IMG/VR virus record: IMGVR_UViG_3300037071_003999
Coordinates: 1 to 47,634 of that record
Length of the DNA: 47,634 nt
Strand: one strand, 5' to 3'
Origin: a virus
The position numbers were made by a program, and so were the translations under genes. Shown here piece by piece: positions 32,449 to 45,874 of this stretch (position 1 is the stretch's first letter; each line of letters begins with the position of its first letter). The notes beneath the pieces are model-generated. The model was not told where the DNA came from and did no database searches. It saw only the letters and a program-made list of their open reading frames with translations.

Positions 32449-32931
32449 GTGATTCGCTGGCTCGCCCCCCTTGCTTTCCTCGCCCTCGTCGCGTGTCAGC
32501 CGGAGTCAGTAGGGGTAGGCAGCGGCGCACCCGAGGCGCCCGAGCAGCTCGACGCGTGCGACATCGATCCCAAGCTGGAGCCGTCGGCGCTCGCTGCGAT
32601 CGCTCTCTGGTCTGAGGCCGCCGGCGCGCCGATCCCATTGCCGATCCGGATCGAGCTCGCTGACTTCGGCGACGATCGCGACCACGGTGCGGCCTGGAGC
32701 GCCGAGCTCGATGTGATCCAGGTTTCGAGCCTTACGCCGGCCGAGGAGCGCGCTGCCACGATCGCGCACGAGCTCGGCCATAGCCTGGGCCTCGAGCATG
32801 AGGTCGGCAGCGGCAGCCTGATGGATCCGGATCGCCCGACCTCGGCCCGGCTCCGCCCGTGCATCACCGCCGAGCTCGCCGCCGGCGCCGGCTACGCGGG
32901 GCCCGGCGCCTGCGCGCCGCTCGCCCCCTGA
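32449..32931 (+). CDS. Lipoprotein metzincin-type zinc metalloprotease
   Basis: The protein has 160 residues from GTG 32449 (AAAGGGGG upstream). The signal peptide ends in lipobox LVAC (Cys16). HELGHSLGLEH (residues 107-117) is the full metzincin zinc site HExxHxxGxxH. SLMDPD (about 123-128) supplies the Met-turn. This fits a minimal matrixin-like peptidase of about 130 mature residues. It would be lipid-anchored in the envelope. It is the last late gene, next to spanin-like genes, and no endolysin was found, so a role in lysis or envelope remodelling is inferred. Superinfection exclusion is another option. Confidence 0.8.
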   Translation: MIRWLAPLAFLALVACQPESVGVGSGAPEAPEQLDACDIDPKLEPSALAAIALWSEAAGAPIPLPIRIELADFGDDRDHGAAWSAELDVIQVSSLTPAEERAATIAHELGHSLGLEHEVGSGSLMDPDRPTSARLRPCITAELAAGAGYAGPGACAPLAP

Positions 32932-35001: not shown

Positions 35002-35135
35002 GGCACAAACTCCCAATCGGCGCCGTCGTTGAGATCGAGTTCCTCGAACGTCTCGCCCTCGGCCCCGAGCTGCTCGGCGTCGTGCCCCTGGAGCTGCTCG
35101 GCCGCCTCGCGGTCGGCGCCGTCGGGCCCGGTCAC
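34998..35135 (-). CDS. Small acidic protein, 45 aa
   Basis: GTG 35135 has GGGAGG 5-6 bases upstream and overlaps the replication gene stop (GTGA). Its TGA overlaps the next GTG. The product is very acidic and helical (EAAEQLQGHDAEQLGAEG, LDLNDGADWEF). Such acidic peptides can be DNA mimics or partner inhibitors; nothing specific is known. Confidence 0.6.
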   Translation of the reverse strand: MTGPDGADREAAEQLQGHDAEQLGAEGETFEELDLNDGADWEFVP

Positions 35136-35977
35136 GCGGCACCTCCCATCGGCTCGCGCTGCTCGACGGCTTGCGCGAGCTTGGCGTCGAGGCGTACGCG
35201 GATCTCGTCGAGGCTAAGCCCTGCGGTGTCCGGCGCGGCGCGCAGCTCGGCGAGCACCGACTCGAGATCGACGCCGTTTTCGTCGGCAAATAGGCGCTGC
35301 TCGGGGCTGGCTTCGATCGCCCGCGCATCCCGGATCGTGCTTGTCAGACTTAGAAGAGTTTTTTTGGTTGGGTTGGGGAGGGTTGGGTTGGGAAGCGCGC
35401 CCGCCCGCGTAGGCGCGGGCTCGCGCGCGCCCTCGTGCGGGGGCGCGCCCGCGAGTGACGTCCCGTCTATGTCACGCGGATTGTCACGCGACATGTCACA
35501 CGGGTTGTCACTCTTTCCGGGTGTGACGTTTCCCGTGACACCCTCGCCGTCGAGCAGCGCGATATCCAGCTTGAAGCGCTTCACGGCGGCGAGCTCGCGC
35601 CGCTTGGCCTCCCGGTGGGCCTGCTGGCGGAGGCGCGCCTTTTCCCGGCGTAGCTCGGTCTCCTCGGGCGCCGGCGCGTGATCGGCATAGTCGTGCATTT
35701 TCCAGCCGCCCTCGGCGACCTCGATGAGGCCCGCCCCTCGCGCGCCCCGCGGCAGCAGGCGCCCGCAGTCGATCAACGCCTGGAGCGCCTTGCTGGCTCG
35801 GCGCGGCGCTCCAGGCAGCTCGTCGAGCTCCTCGGCGGGCACAAAGCCCTCGGTGTCCGGATGCTGCGAGCAGTAGCATTTGAGCGCTAGCCACATCGCG
35901 ATCGCATCGCTGCCGCCGAGCTTCACTGCTCGGCGGTACTTTTCGCCCCCGATAAACTCCTCTTTGATGAGGATCAT
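35132..35977 (-). CDS. Replication initiator-like protein (lambda O type)
   Basis: The protein has 281 residues from ATG 35977, with GGAGG 12 bases upstream. The N-terminal 110 residues form a winged-helix domain: VKLGGSDAIAMWLALKCYCS, GFVPAEELDELPGAPRRASK, ALQALIDCGRLLPR and GWKMHDYADHAPAPEE. This is common to phage replisome organisers. A basic linker contains origin-like repeats in its DNA (35470-35540). The C-terminus is acidic and helical (LDEIRVRLDAKLAQAVEQRE), like a helicase-loader contact. No helicase gene was found, so host helicase use is inferred. Confidence 0.75.
   Translation of the reverse strand: MILIKEEFIGGEKYRRAVKLGGSDAIAMWLALKCYCSQHPDTEGFVPAEELDELPGAPRRASKALQALIDCGRLLPRGARGAGLIEVAEGGWKMHDYADHAPAPEETELRREKARLRQQAHREAKRRELAAVKRFKLDIALLDGEGVTGNVTPGKSDNPCDMSRDNPRDIDGTSLAGAPPHEGAREPAPTRAGALPNPTLPNPTKKTLLSLTSTIRDARAIEASPEQRLFADENGVDLESVLAELRAAPDTAGLSLDEIRVRLDAKLAQAVEQREPMGGAA
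35359..35392 (+). repeat. T-tract and G-quadruplex motif next to the iterons
   Basis: Seven Ts (35359-35365) precede five G-tracts of three or four (35370, 35375, 35380, 35385, 35390) with loops of 1-2 bases. On the coding strand it encodes repeated Asn-Pro-Thr. It may form a stable quadruplex near the presumed origin. Confidence 0.65.
35470..35540. promoter_or_regulatory. Putative replication origin: 12-bp TGTCAC iterons
   Basis: TGTCAC recurs at 35470, 35482, 35494 and 35506, an exact 12-bp period (about one helical turn). It is followed by inverted copies GTGACG (35523) and GTGACA (35535). All lie inside the replication initiator gene, as lambda ori does within O. The likely binder is that protein. 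A T7 tract and a G-quadruplex motif lie about 100 bp away. Confidence 0.7.
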
Positions 35978-35994
35978 TTTCTCGCCGCCTCCCT

Positions 35995-36012
35995 CCCCGC
36001 GCACGCGCGGGG
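35995..36012 (-). promoter_or_regulatory. Hairpin just upstream of the replication gene
   Basis: CCCCGCG (35995-36001) and CGCGGGG (36006-36012) flank CACG. It lies a few bases 5' of the GGAGG ribosome site for the replication initiator, in one of the few operon gaps. It may tune translation or mark an mRNA processing site. Confidence 0.4.
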
Positions 36013-43320: not shown

Positions 43321-43514
43321 CGTCGCCCCCGCTTGTGCTGCCCTGCGCCGGCGCCCTTGCGCAAAGCTCTACGACATTGCCGCGAGCAGATTGCCGAGGA
43401 GCTGAGGGCGCCGCACACCGCGCACCTGTCCGGCGCCGGCGCTGCGTCGAGATCGTCGATCTCACGCTCCAGCGCGGCCCTCTTTTGGGGCGAGGTGAGG
43501 TGACACCGGGCCAC
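43317..43514 (-). CDS. Zinc-finger small protein, 65 aa
   Basis: CAVCGALSSSAICSRQCRRAL (residues about 31-51) is a four-Cys finger close to that in the gene at 42648. A coil-like N-terminus (QKRAALEREIDDLDAAP) and basic tail (KGAGAGQHKRGRR) surround it. The GTG start shares its G with the integrase stop (TAGTG). Confidence 0.65.
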   Translation of the reverse strand: MARCHLTSPQKRAALEREIDDLDAAPAPDRCAVCGALSSSAICSRQCRRALRKGAGAGQHKRGRR

Positions 43515-45874
43515 TACCGCCCCCCCCGCTCGCCGCGCTGCGCCCGGACGACCTCGAGCCGGACCGGCTCGGGCGGCGCTGCTGCCCGGGCGGCCGCGGC
43601 CTCGTTCGAGAGCCGGACCCGCTCGGCCTCAATAAGTGGCTCCAAGCCCCGGGCCGCCGTCCAATTGAATTCCTCGCTCGCTTGGCGGTGCGCGGCCTGG
43701 AGCTGCGCGAGGAGCGGTGTCACGGCTGCCCGTGACACCTCGCCGCTTCCGGTTCCTTCCGGCGCAGTCGCCGGCGCGGTTCCCTCGGGTTTTGTCGCTT
43801 GCGGTCGTCCGGGTTCGGATTTAGGTTCCAGCGCCGCAAGGCGTGCAGGTTCGACCCCTGTCTCGCGCACGACAGCAGAAAACATGCTGGTTTCGGCGTT
43901 TCCCGGAACTGGTGACACCTCGCCCGAAACCGCGGTGTCACGGCTGGTGTCACGGCTGCTCCAGCGGGGGGCAGCCTCGCCCGGGTGGACGAGATGCGCG
44001 CCGCCCTCGCCCGCGGAGTCCACCTCGGCCGCCGTCGCCGATTTCGCGCCCAGGTTTGCGGGCGAGCCATGCGACACGCCGCGCCGCCCCGCCACGCCTC
44101 GCCGGGGCGCCCGCGCGCCGCGCGCCGCCACGCGCCGGGGGGCCTCGCCCTCGGGCGCCGCGAACCGCGCCCGGAGCTCCGCGCCCGGGGCATAGCCCGA
44201 ATCGAAGTCAGCCGCCGTCGTCGCGGTGTTACCCGGCCCGGCAGGCTCGTGTAACGGCGAGGTAACGGGTAGACGCGCGCCGGGGAGGTCAGCTCCCGGC
44301 GTGCTCGAGGCTCGCCCCTGACCGGGCCGGTGATGGTTGCCAACCTCGGCCTCGGTTGCAGCAGCCGTGCTCGGTTGCGCGCCAGCCTCGGTTGGAAAAG
44401 TGACCCCTGCCCGCTTTACCGGGTGCGCTCCCACCGGGAGCTCGGGGTCATAAGCGGTGTGCTCGCCCGCGCCGAGCAGCAGGGGCGCGGGCGCCCCCGC
44501 GGCGAGCTCGCCGCGCACGTCGAGGCCCATCGCCTGATCGAGCGGCAGGTATCGAGCGAGGCCGAGGTGCTCGATCGTCGCCTTGCTCCGATTGTAGCGC
44601 GCGATCATGGTGCTCGACTCGTGCCCGGTGTGTTGGCTGATCGTCTCATTGTCGACGCCCGCGAGCTTGCACCACGTGACGAACGTCGAGCGCAAGTCGT
44701 GCTCGCGCAGGCGGCGCAGCCGACCGTCGTTGGTGAGCAGTCGCTCGCGCGTCGTGCCCGATTGCTCGATGTGATCGCGAACCCGCTCGGCGGCTTTCTT
44801 GAGGTTCGTCGCTTTCATCCAAGTGAACGGCCCGGCCAGATCCGGGCGCAGCTTGCGAAACGCCTCGAGCACCTCGCCGGTGCCGACGTTGAGAACGAAG
44901 TTCAGCGCGCGCCCCGTCTTGCTGTCGGGCACGTCGAGCAACCACCGGCCGTTGTCGAGCTGCGAGAGGTGTCGCCATTGGATCCGGAACGCCTCGCTGA
45001 TGCGCAGGCCCTCGCGAACGATGAAACCCCACAGCACGCGCCACTCGATCCCGATCTTCTCGCACCGCATGAGCCGCACGTATTCGTCGGGATAGAGGAA
45101 CGGGAACACCGGGTTGCTCGACTTGGGCACGATCGGCAGCTTGCACACCGCGCTCAATGGCCACGCGGGAATGATGCGCAGCTCGCACGCGATTTTCAGC
45201 ACGCGCCGACACACCTGCGCGTAGGCCTTGAACGTGGAATCGGTTTTGCAATGCGCGCGCGCCGGGCGCATCGCGCGCCAGTAATCATCATCGTTGAACG
45301 TCGCCAGCGGTACATCGGCGATGTACTTGCACAGAAACTCCACCCGCGGCTCGTCGGTGCTCTCGCCGCTCAATTTACCGTAACCGGCGTTCGGATAGAG
45401 CACCGCGAGATCCTGCTTACACCACGCCCGCGCGAGCAGCCCCCAGGTCGAGAATTTCGTGGTCGCCTCGCTGCTCTTTGCACTCGGGCGGACCATGACG
45501 ACGTCGGCGGCCGCGATCGCGAAATGGAATTTCTCCGGATCGTTCGCGACGGCGCCCGCCTTACGCATGAGATACTCGGCCTGACCCCCGCGATCGACCG
45601 CGACCAGCGCGTCGCGCATCGCGACGATATCGGCGAGCCTCGCGCGAGCGAGCGCGCGGCACGCCTCGGGCGTGCCGAACGATTCGTCGATGCGGATCGT
45701 CAAGCGAAACTGTCGGCGCTTGCCGAGGTTGCCCGCAGCGTCGCGCGCGCTGCCCGCGCTCATCGGGATCGAATAGCCCCCCGGCACCTGCCGCAGCCCG
45801 GCTTTCGATCCTTGCTTGCGCGGACCCCGGCGGCCCGGCACCTCGGGGCTCACTCGATTGCGTTTTCTGACCAT
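43514..45874 (-). CDS. int: Tyrosine recombinase (integrase) with long C-terminal extension containing attP
   Basis: The protein has 786 residues from ATG 45874 (TAATG overlap). The arm/core-binding N-terminus is basic. The catalytic domain spans about 255-440 with Arg291 (EGLRISEAFR), Lys319 (DSKTGRA), HDLR (His392-Arg395), GHES (His418) and nucleophile Tyr427 (ARYNRS). The extra 360 residues after Tyr427 are Pro/Ala/Gly-rich and disordered. Codons about 669-686 coincide with the attP core (a tRNA-Leu 3' half), so the extension is dictated by DNA sites. In Mx8 the attP is also inside the integrase gene. Integration would replace the last 100 or so codons with host DNA. Confidence 0.93.
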   Translation of the reverse strand: MVRKRNRVSPEVPGRRGPRKQGSKAGLRQVPGGYSIPMSAGSARDAAGNLGKRRQFRLTIRIDESFGTPEACRALARARLADIVAMRDALVAVDRGGQAEYLMRKAGAVANDPEKFHFAIAAADVVMVRPSAKSSEATTKFSTWGLLARAWCKQDLAVLYPNAGYGKLSGESTDEPRVEFLCKYIADVPLATFNDDDYWRAMRPARAHCKTDSTFKAYAQVCRRVLKIACELRIIPAWPLSAVCKLPIVPKSSNPVFPFLYPDEYVRLMRCEKIGIEWRVLWGFIVREGLRISEAFRIQWRHLSQLDNGRWLLDVPDSKTGRALNFVLNVGTGEVLEAFRKLRPDLAGPFTWMKATNLKKAAERVRDHIEQSGTTRERLLTNDGRLRRLREHDLRSTFVTWCKLAGVDNETISQHTGHESSTMIARYNRSKATIEHLGLARYLPLDQAMGLDVRGELAAGAPAPLLLGAGEHTAYDPELPVGAHPVKRAGVTFPTEAGAQPSTAAATEAEVGNHHRPGQGRASSTPGADLPGARLPVTSPLHEPAGPGNTATTAADFDSGYAPGAELRARFAAPEGEAPRRVAARGARAPRRGVAGRRGVSHGSPANLGAKSATAAEVDSAGEGGAHLVHPGEAAPRWSSRDTSRDTAVSGEVSPVPGNAETSMFSAVVRETGVEPARLAALEPKSEPGRPQATKPEGTAPATAPEGTGSGEVSRAAVTPLLAQLQAAHRQASEEFNWTAARGLEPLIEAERVRLSNEAAAARAAAPPEPVRLEVVRAQRGERGGR
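43716..43740. other. attP arm sites, left (P-arm candidates)
   Basis: GGTGTCACGGCTG (43716-43728) is followed by inverted GTGACACCT (43732-43740). They lie 76 bp from the core. The same motif recurs on the other side, so they are likely integrase arm-type sites. Confidence 0.7.
43817..43870 (+). other. attP core: 3' half of a tRNA-Leu(TAG) gene
   Basis: Reading right, the sequence starts in the anticodon arm: loop TTTAGGT (43820-43826, anticodon TAG), stem TCCAG, long variable arm GCC-GCAA-GGC, then T-arm GCAGG-TTCGACC-CCTGT and acceptor CTCGCGC-A. All 3' features of a class II tRNA-Leu pair correctly, while the 5' half is absent. The expected 5' anticodon stem CTGGA is replaced by TCGGA, marking the end of identity. 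It would rebuild the host tRNA after integration. Confidence 0.88.
43911..43958. other. attP arm sites, right (P'-arm candidates)
   Basis: GGTGACACCT (43911-43920), then GGTGTCACGGCTG at 43934-43946 and again at 43946-43958, sharing one G (12-bp period). These lie 40-88 bp from the core. With the left pair they span 243 bp, the size of lambda attP. Confidence 0.72.

Follow-up and report, generated by a model that had tools for sequence, protein, structure and literature searches.

A probable attP site with a tRNA-Leu half as its core, built into the 3' part of the integrase gene of a tailed phage

Why should a phage bury its attachment site in the gene of its own integrase, and what becomes of the enzyme when that site recombines? 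The question is raised by one locus in the window, by which we mean the whole 47,634-base stretch of DNA analysed (IMG/VR virus record IMGVR_UViG_3300037071_003999; GC content 67%). The original prediction had placed an attP here, with the 3' half of a tRNA-Leu(TAG) gene as its core and the integrase gene, int, around it, and had taken the phage to be temperate. These three claims are supported together. Very probably, a temperate tailed phage here carries its entire attP within the 3' part of int, where loss of the protein's tail would mark the integrated state. Window genes match a large terminase, a portal, a major head protein, a tail sheath and baseplate proteins; as a set, they indicate a tailed phage whose tail is contractile. 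Elsewhere in the window, a replication initiation protein is matched at 35132-36004 (phrog_2447, E 2e-14), and a small ORF, predicted to be lipoprotein-like, follows the tail genes at 32449-32931; its metallopeptidase matches (matrixin/M78-like) are weak and fall under the curated cut-offs.

The int frame (43514..45874, minus strand) comprises 786 codons and spans the whole attP. It is identified as a tyrosine integrase gene by its open frame, its Pfam and PHROG integrase matches and its counterparts in four related phages. The Pfam Phage_integrase domain covers residues 259-431 (44582..45100, minus strand; E 5e-14), and R291, K319, H392, R395, H418 and Y427 are invariant in all five phages. 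The domain and this R-K-H-R-H-Y set, whose individual roles are presumed from the family motifs, place the protein among the tyrosine recombinases of the phage integrase family. Across the five phages, the catalytic part shows a dN/dS of 0.23. The closest annotated integrase, that of Rctr16k, is 29% identical and comprises 401 residues without the extension. The int frame contains no stop codon in any of the five phages, and the other five frames of the extension contain 1-10 stops.

The attP core lies at 43817..43870 on the plus strand, which reads GGATTTAGGTTCCAGCGCCGCAAGGCGTGCAGGTTCGACCCCTGTCTCGCGCAC (54 bases). It covers int codons 669-686 in antisense, leaves 100 codons beyond it, and sits 242 codons past the catalytic Tyr427. 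Pattern matching, tRNA comparison and a pairing test identify it as the 3' half of a tRNA-Leu(UAG): part of the anticodon stem, the anticodon loop, the variable arm, the T arm, the acceptor 3' strand, A73 and the first C. The phage halves lack an encoded CCA and read CAC followed by a variable base. The exact position proposed for the half is confirmed: no shuffled window contains the 54-base pattern, and the pattern derived from the phage cores matches intact bacterial tRNA-Leu(TAG) genes at five loci among 84,980 genomes, as verified by ARAGORN. The same program finds no complete tRNA in the window, as expected for a core that is a half only, and Rfam gives no match above threshold in the attP region. 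The reading of this half as an attP inside int gains from annotated sites: the AttP annotated in D3 and PMG1, both Pseudomonas phages, matches its first 38 nucleotides at 92%.

Scans of viral contigs recovered four relatives from IMG/VR (L002, L003, L004 and L027; contigs of 48.0 to 49.1 kb), of which a narrower DNA pattern matched L003 and L004 only. Their integrases are 63-76% identical overall to that of the window phage, and each has, at the same position in int, an antisense tRNA-Leu 3' half. The genes flanking int are syntenic on both sides in the relatives, which places the core in the interior of the phage genome; on the same ground, the idea that it represents the end of a prophage is ruled out. 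The five halves differ in the variable arm, the T stem and the anticodon stem, yet all 11 testable base pairs are kept in every phage (100% of the pair cells in the core alignment are paired), and shifting the pairing partner, as a sliding control, destroys the pairing. In four pairs, both partners have changed; shuffling gives 1.7 such pairs on average, and 9 of 500 shuffles reach 4. Since the halves differ and the pairing is kept, each phage probably follows the tRNA gene of the host that it infects, and the five halves probably correspond to different hosts. Furthermore, the core is read in two of the three antisense frames, one in the window phage, L002 and L004 and another in L003 and L027, and all of them rejoin the same tail frame. 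The use of two frames indicates that the DNA, not the peptide, is conserved there.

The core is flanked by GTGAC-type repeats, a feature absent from the original prediction and added here. With offsets counted from the tRNA 3' end, candidate site 1 of the P arm, CAGCCGTGACACC, lies at 43947..43953 (minus strand; -83) and its direct repeat, site 2, at 43935..43941 (minus strand; -71). On the P' side, candidate site 1 reads GGTGTCACGG in the int direction (43732..43738, minus strand; GTCAC at +134), and candidate site 2, inverted to it, reads GCCGTGACACC (43717..43723, minus strand; GTGAC at +147). The geometry is thus a direct pair on one side of the core and an inverted pair on the other, and the GTGAC/GTCAC elements recur at -83, -71, +134 and +147, within 1 bp, in all five phages. 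An extra copy found only in the window phage (43912..43918, minus strand) is inverted to both P-arm sites, reading GTGTCAC in the int direction with GTCAC at -46. The motif itself varies between phages: GCCGTGACACC in the window phage and L002, GTGTGACC in L003 and L004, and GTGTGACGC in L027. Such joint change at fixed positions is what is expected for binding sites of a co-evolving protein. By analogy with lambda-type systems, and from their position and repetition, the repeats are candidate arm-type sites, with Int as the presumed binder. In the window, six of the eight copies of GGTGTCAC fall within 454 bp (43500-43953), compared with an expectation of 0.62 for the whole window. Clustering of 8-mers was dropped as a test because GC-only 8-mers cluster equally densely; the ratio of local to genome-wide copies (6/8) is the sole measure that singles out GGTGTCAC.

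Regarding the protein, the extension of 360 residues described in the original prediction is indeed long, but it is not uniform: a weakly conserved linker that holds attP comes first, and then a tail of about 65 residues that is conserved. The linker (codons 449-719; 43718..44530, minus strand) is delimited by dN/dS, identity and structure modelling. Its median dN/dS is 0.76 over codons 449-640 and 0.86 over 641-718, with an amino-acid identity of 0.37-0.43, and no protein-level constraint is detected by dN/dS in codons 449-719 across the five phages, a sample that gives selection tests limited power. The tail (the last 67 codons, residues 720-786; 43514..43717, minus strand) has a median dN/dS of 0.32, which reflects purifying selection. 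The AlphaFold model predicts a two-helix hairpin here (720-734 and 738-764, pLDDT 65-79), but it rests on four sequences and has low confidence even in the catalytic domain, so that the helices count as supporting evidence only; the same weak model predicts no structure in 449-719. Searched alone, the tail has no match in phage records or in Pfam. Constraint thus falls on the DNA in attP and on the protein in the tail, and the frame that connects them is kept open.

The linker also contains elements of other kinds. Inverted repeat A, GTTACCTCGCCGTTAC...GTAAC(GGCGAG), at 44227..44266, is retained by L002 and L003 and in part by L004, and is absent from L027; in the window phage, L002 and L003 it lies 350-450 bp from the core, is conserved at the DNA level and may be an accessory or regulatory site. 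Inverted repeat B, GGTGGAC...GTCCACC, at 43984..44024, is also found in the linkers of L002, L003 and L004; in L004, the element is doubled and has both arms altered jointly (GGTGGCCT/AGGCCAC). At about 44270-44345 of the window, a block around GGGAGCTGACCTCCCCGGCGCGC (STPGADLPGAR in the protein) is strongly conserved as DNA in L003, L004 and L027, although the linkers have otherwise diverged. CxxC zinc-ribbon-like insertions occur in the linkers of L003 (9290-9400), L004 (11620-11730) and L002 (11790-11865), and the window phage has none.

The proposed deltaproteobacterial host finds no such support. None of 84,980 genomes, searched with a pattern that covered the first four cores, yielded a tRNA gene that agrees with all 54 bp of the core, and no prophage bordered by a tRNA-Leu(TAG) of this kind was found. 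No deltaproteobacterial tRNA-Leu in this set matches, an outcome that the original prediction had named as a refutation and that formally counts against the host assignment; the only fits to the shared pattern are five betaproteobacterial tRNA-Leu genes, each differing at 8 of the 54 positions. The window Int has no match in the genome contigs, neither an Int profile nor a looser pattern yields anything among 398 Pseudomonadota genomes beyond the centre genome itself, and no lysogen or bacterial genome carrying this prophage was found in the genomes searched. The result bears on the host assignment only: the missing attB leaves attP intact, because at this place the four relatives have tRNA-Leu halves that differ from it and pair equally well. 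Since the halves lack an encoded CCA, a host with CCA-less tRNA genes would fit better than a betaproteobacterium. On the viral side, contig IMGVR_UViG_2731957734_000001 (L016) has several tRNA genes; among them, at 620-702, is an intact tRNA-Leu(TAG) with the same acceptor strand, CTCGCGCAC.

In the mechanism that we propose, Int would bind the flanking repeats via its N-terminal part and recombine the anticodon-loop region of the core with a host tRNA-Leu gene. The phage half would restore the host tRNA gene, which would then adjoin int, and int would be cut at about codon 681-686. The prophage Int would retain the catalytic domain and most of the linker, lose the conserved tail of about 65 residues and acquire a new end encoded by the host, in the antisense reading of the tRNA 5' half. 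When this is modelled with five proxy tRNA-Leu genes in place of a real lysogen, the antisense 5' half contains no stop, and the new Int ends measure from 17 to over 140 residues. The exchange of tails would mark the integrated state and would probably alter the activity or direction of Int, as reported for Mx8; this effect is our best guess, carried over by analogy from an Int that can barely be aligned with the present one. Somewhat short of an even chance is given to a broader interpretation, in which the integrase acts as a built-in integration sensor: a single recombination would insert the phage and remove a domain governing direction or activity, the conserved two-helix tail being tethered by a linker whose codons are the attP. 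Such a device would have evolved at least twice, in Mx8 and in the present family, with the same arm-site plan.

The locus can also be read without any regulatory role. In that case attP would truly lie in the int ORF, but by read-through, the stop codon having merely been lost and a compact module gained; the tail would serve ordinary folding or stability of Int, or its replacement would have no particular effect. Phage D3, in which nearly the same tRNA half directly follows the int stop codon, makes read-through a small step, and both the unextended 401-residue Int of Rctr16k and the lack of protein constraint in the linker and attP codons agree with it. The purifying selection on the tail argues against such a passive origin, as does a frame that stays open despite large indels and despite a shift of frame within the core; the C-terminal change of Mx8 Int is, moreover, reported to alter its activity (PMC4701971) or specificity (PMC6070905). 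We regard this account as rather unlikely. Alternatively, the tail could be a separate small protein started at an in-frame GTG in the P' repeat, incidentally fused to int and still encoded at the far end of the prophage. In-frame GTG codons do stand at the tail start in the window phage, L002, L003, L004 and L027, but the repeat itself dictates this codon, nothing resembling a Shine-Dalgarno sequence is seen upstream of it, and the int frame is open through to the tail in all five; a separate product is improbable.

The remaining alternatives deny either the site or the gene. If the tRNA half were a relic of past recombination, with the working att site elsewhere, the failure to find an identical attB in 84,980 genomes would be explained. 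A relic would decay, however, and the kept pairing with its compensatory changes, together with the flanking repeats fixed in all five phages, makes this very improbable. Still less credence is due to the long ORF being a chance open frame, which a GC content of 67% might favour: this possibility is refuted by the stops in all five other frames of every phage and by the dN/dS of 0.32 in the tail.

With attP read as a working site inside int, a second bacterial family of five members, with a conserved arm-site plan and a selected tail, makes the question of why attP should be buried in int testable by comparison. The family also suggests host switching by exchange of tRNA halves with the reading frame kept, and supplies a compact int-attP module. 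To our knowledge, very few bacterial elements have an attP within int, Mx8 and Mx9 being the main examples.

Among known systems, the core, running from the anticodon stem to A73, belongs to Islander class A (anticodon-type tDNA sites), defined as tDNA-targeting islands whose attP holds a 3' tRNA fragment that extends from the anticodon loop to the 3' end (PMC4383910). The attP of Pseudomonas phage D3 (AF165214, 27039-27099) is nearly the same tRNA-Leu 3' half, agreeing at 35 of the first 38 nucleotides and lying in the same orientation to int. Unlike the window core, the D3 half keeps the encoded CCA and stands just outside int, directly past the stop codon, which makes D3 the ordinary version of this arrangement. 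Archaeal SSV-type "suicidal" integrases likewise have the att site in the integrase gene, which integration alters. In contrast to the window Int, which like that of Mx8 would lose only a tail and keep its catalytic domain whole, with the core 242 codons beyond Tyr427, SSV Int is split, its catalytic and N-terminal parts are separated and the enzyme is lost. A 2021 review, in which Mx8 is unmentioned, considers disruption of the own gene by recombinases exclusively archaeal (PMC8371274). Phages with integration-dependent immunity (mycobacteriophage BPs and relatives) also carry attP in a coding gene and use its change as a state signal; according to PMC4557955, that gene encodes the repressor, whereas here it encodes the integrase.

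Mx9 is reported in a review to integrate in a manner similar to Mx8 (PMC6070905). Like the window phage, Mx9 (AY247757, OQ709411) has an antisense tRNA-like piece within the int ORF, before the C-terminal part. The Mx9 piece resembles a tRNA 5' half, whereas that of the window phage is a 3' half, and the C-terminal part of Mx9 Int matches HTH_17 (E 3.5e-11), whereas the window tail is a predicted helical hairpin without a Pfam match. In Mx9 Int (L023, OQ709411 18795-20441), the HTH_17 domain forms an excisionase-like end after the antisense tRNA piece. Its location implies that Int would lose a DNA-binding domain on integration.

In Mx8, the core derives from a tRNA that we take to be tRNA-Asp. 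The original prediction rightly cited this phage as the precedent for attP inside int: in D86464, a recombination core of 29 bp is annotated at codons 412-421 of the 533 in int. Both phages (Mx8: D86464, AF396866) have a tRNA 3' end antisense in the 3' part of a tyrosine-integrase ORF, the core lying within the coding sequence. Both have direct GTGAC-type repeats 60-83 bp before the core and one or two 134-148 bp after it (in Mx8, two copies of GTGACAGC, at -71 and -60, and a third at +141), and in both about 100 residues lie past the core, which in Mx8 are lost on integration. A later paper that cites the original work (PMC4701971) reports that a 112-residue C terminus of Mx8 Int is replaced by 13 residues, with lowered activity, and a review describes the change as altering specificity and acting as a switch (PMC6070905). 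The two systems differ in that the window core is tRNA-Leu and of the anticodon-loop type and the Mx8 core of the T-arm type, that the window linker is much longer (about 270 codons), and that no recognisable Uoi homologue was found beside the window int. The two Ints are almost unalignable (BLASTP E 0.019 over 38 residues only, short of full-length homology), so that the like plan does not establish shared ancestry. The present family is a variant of the Mx8 kind of attP within int, the principle itself being already known.
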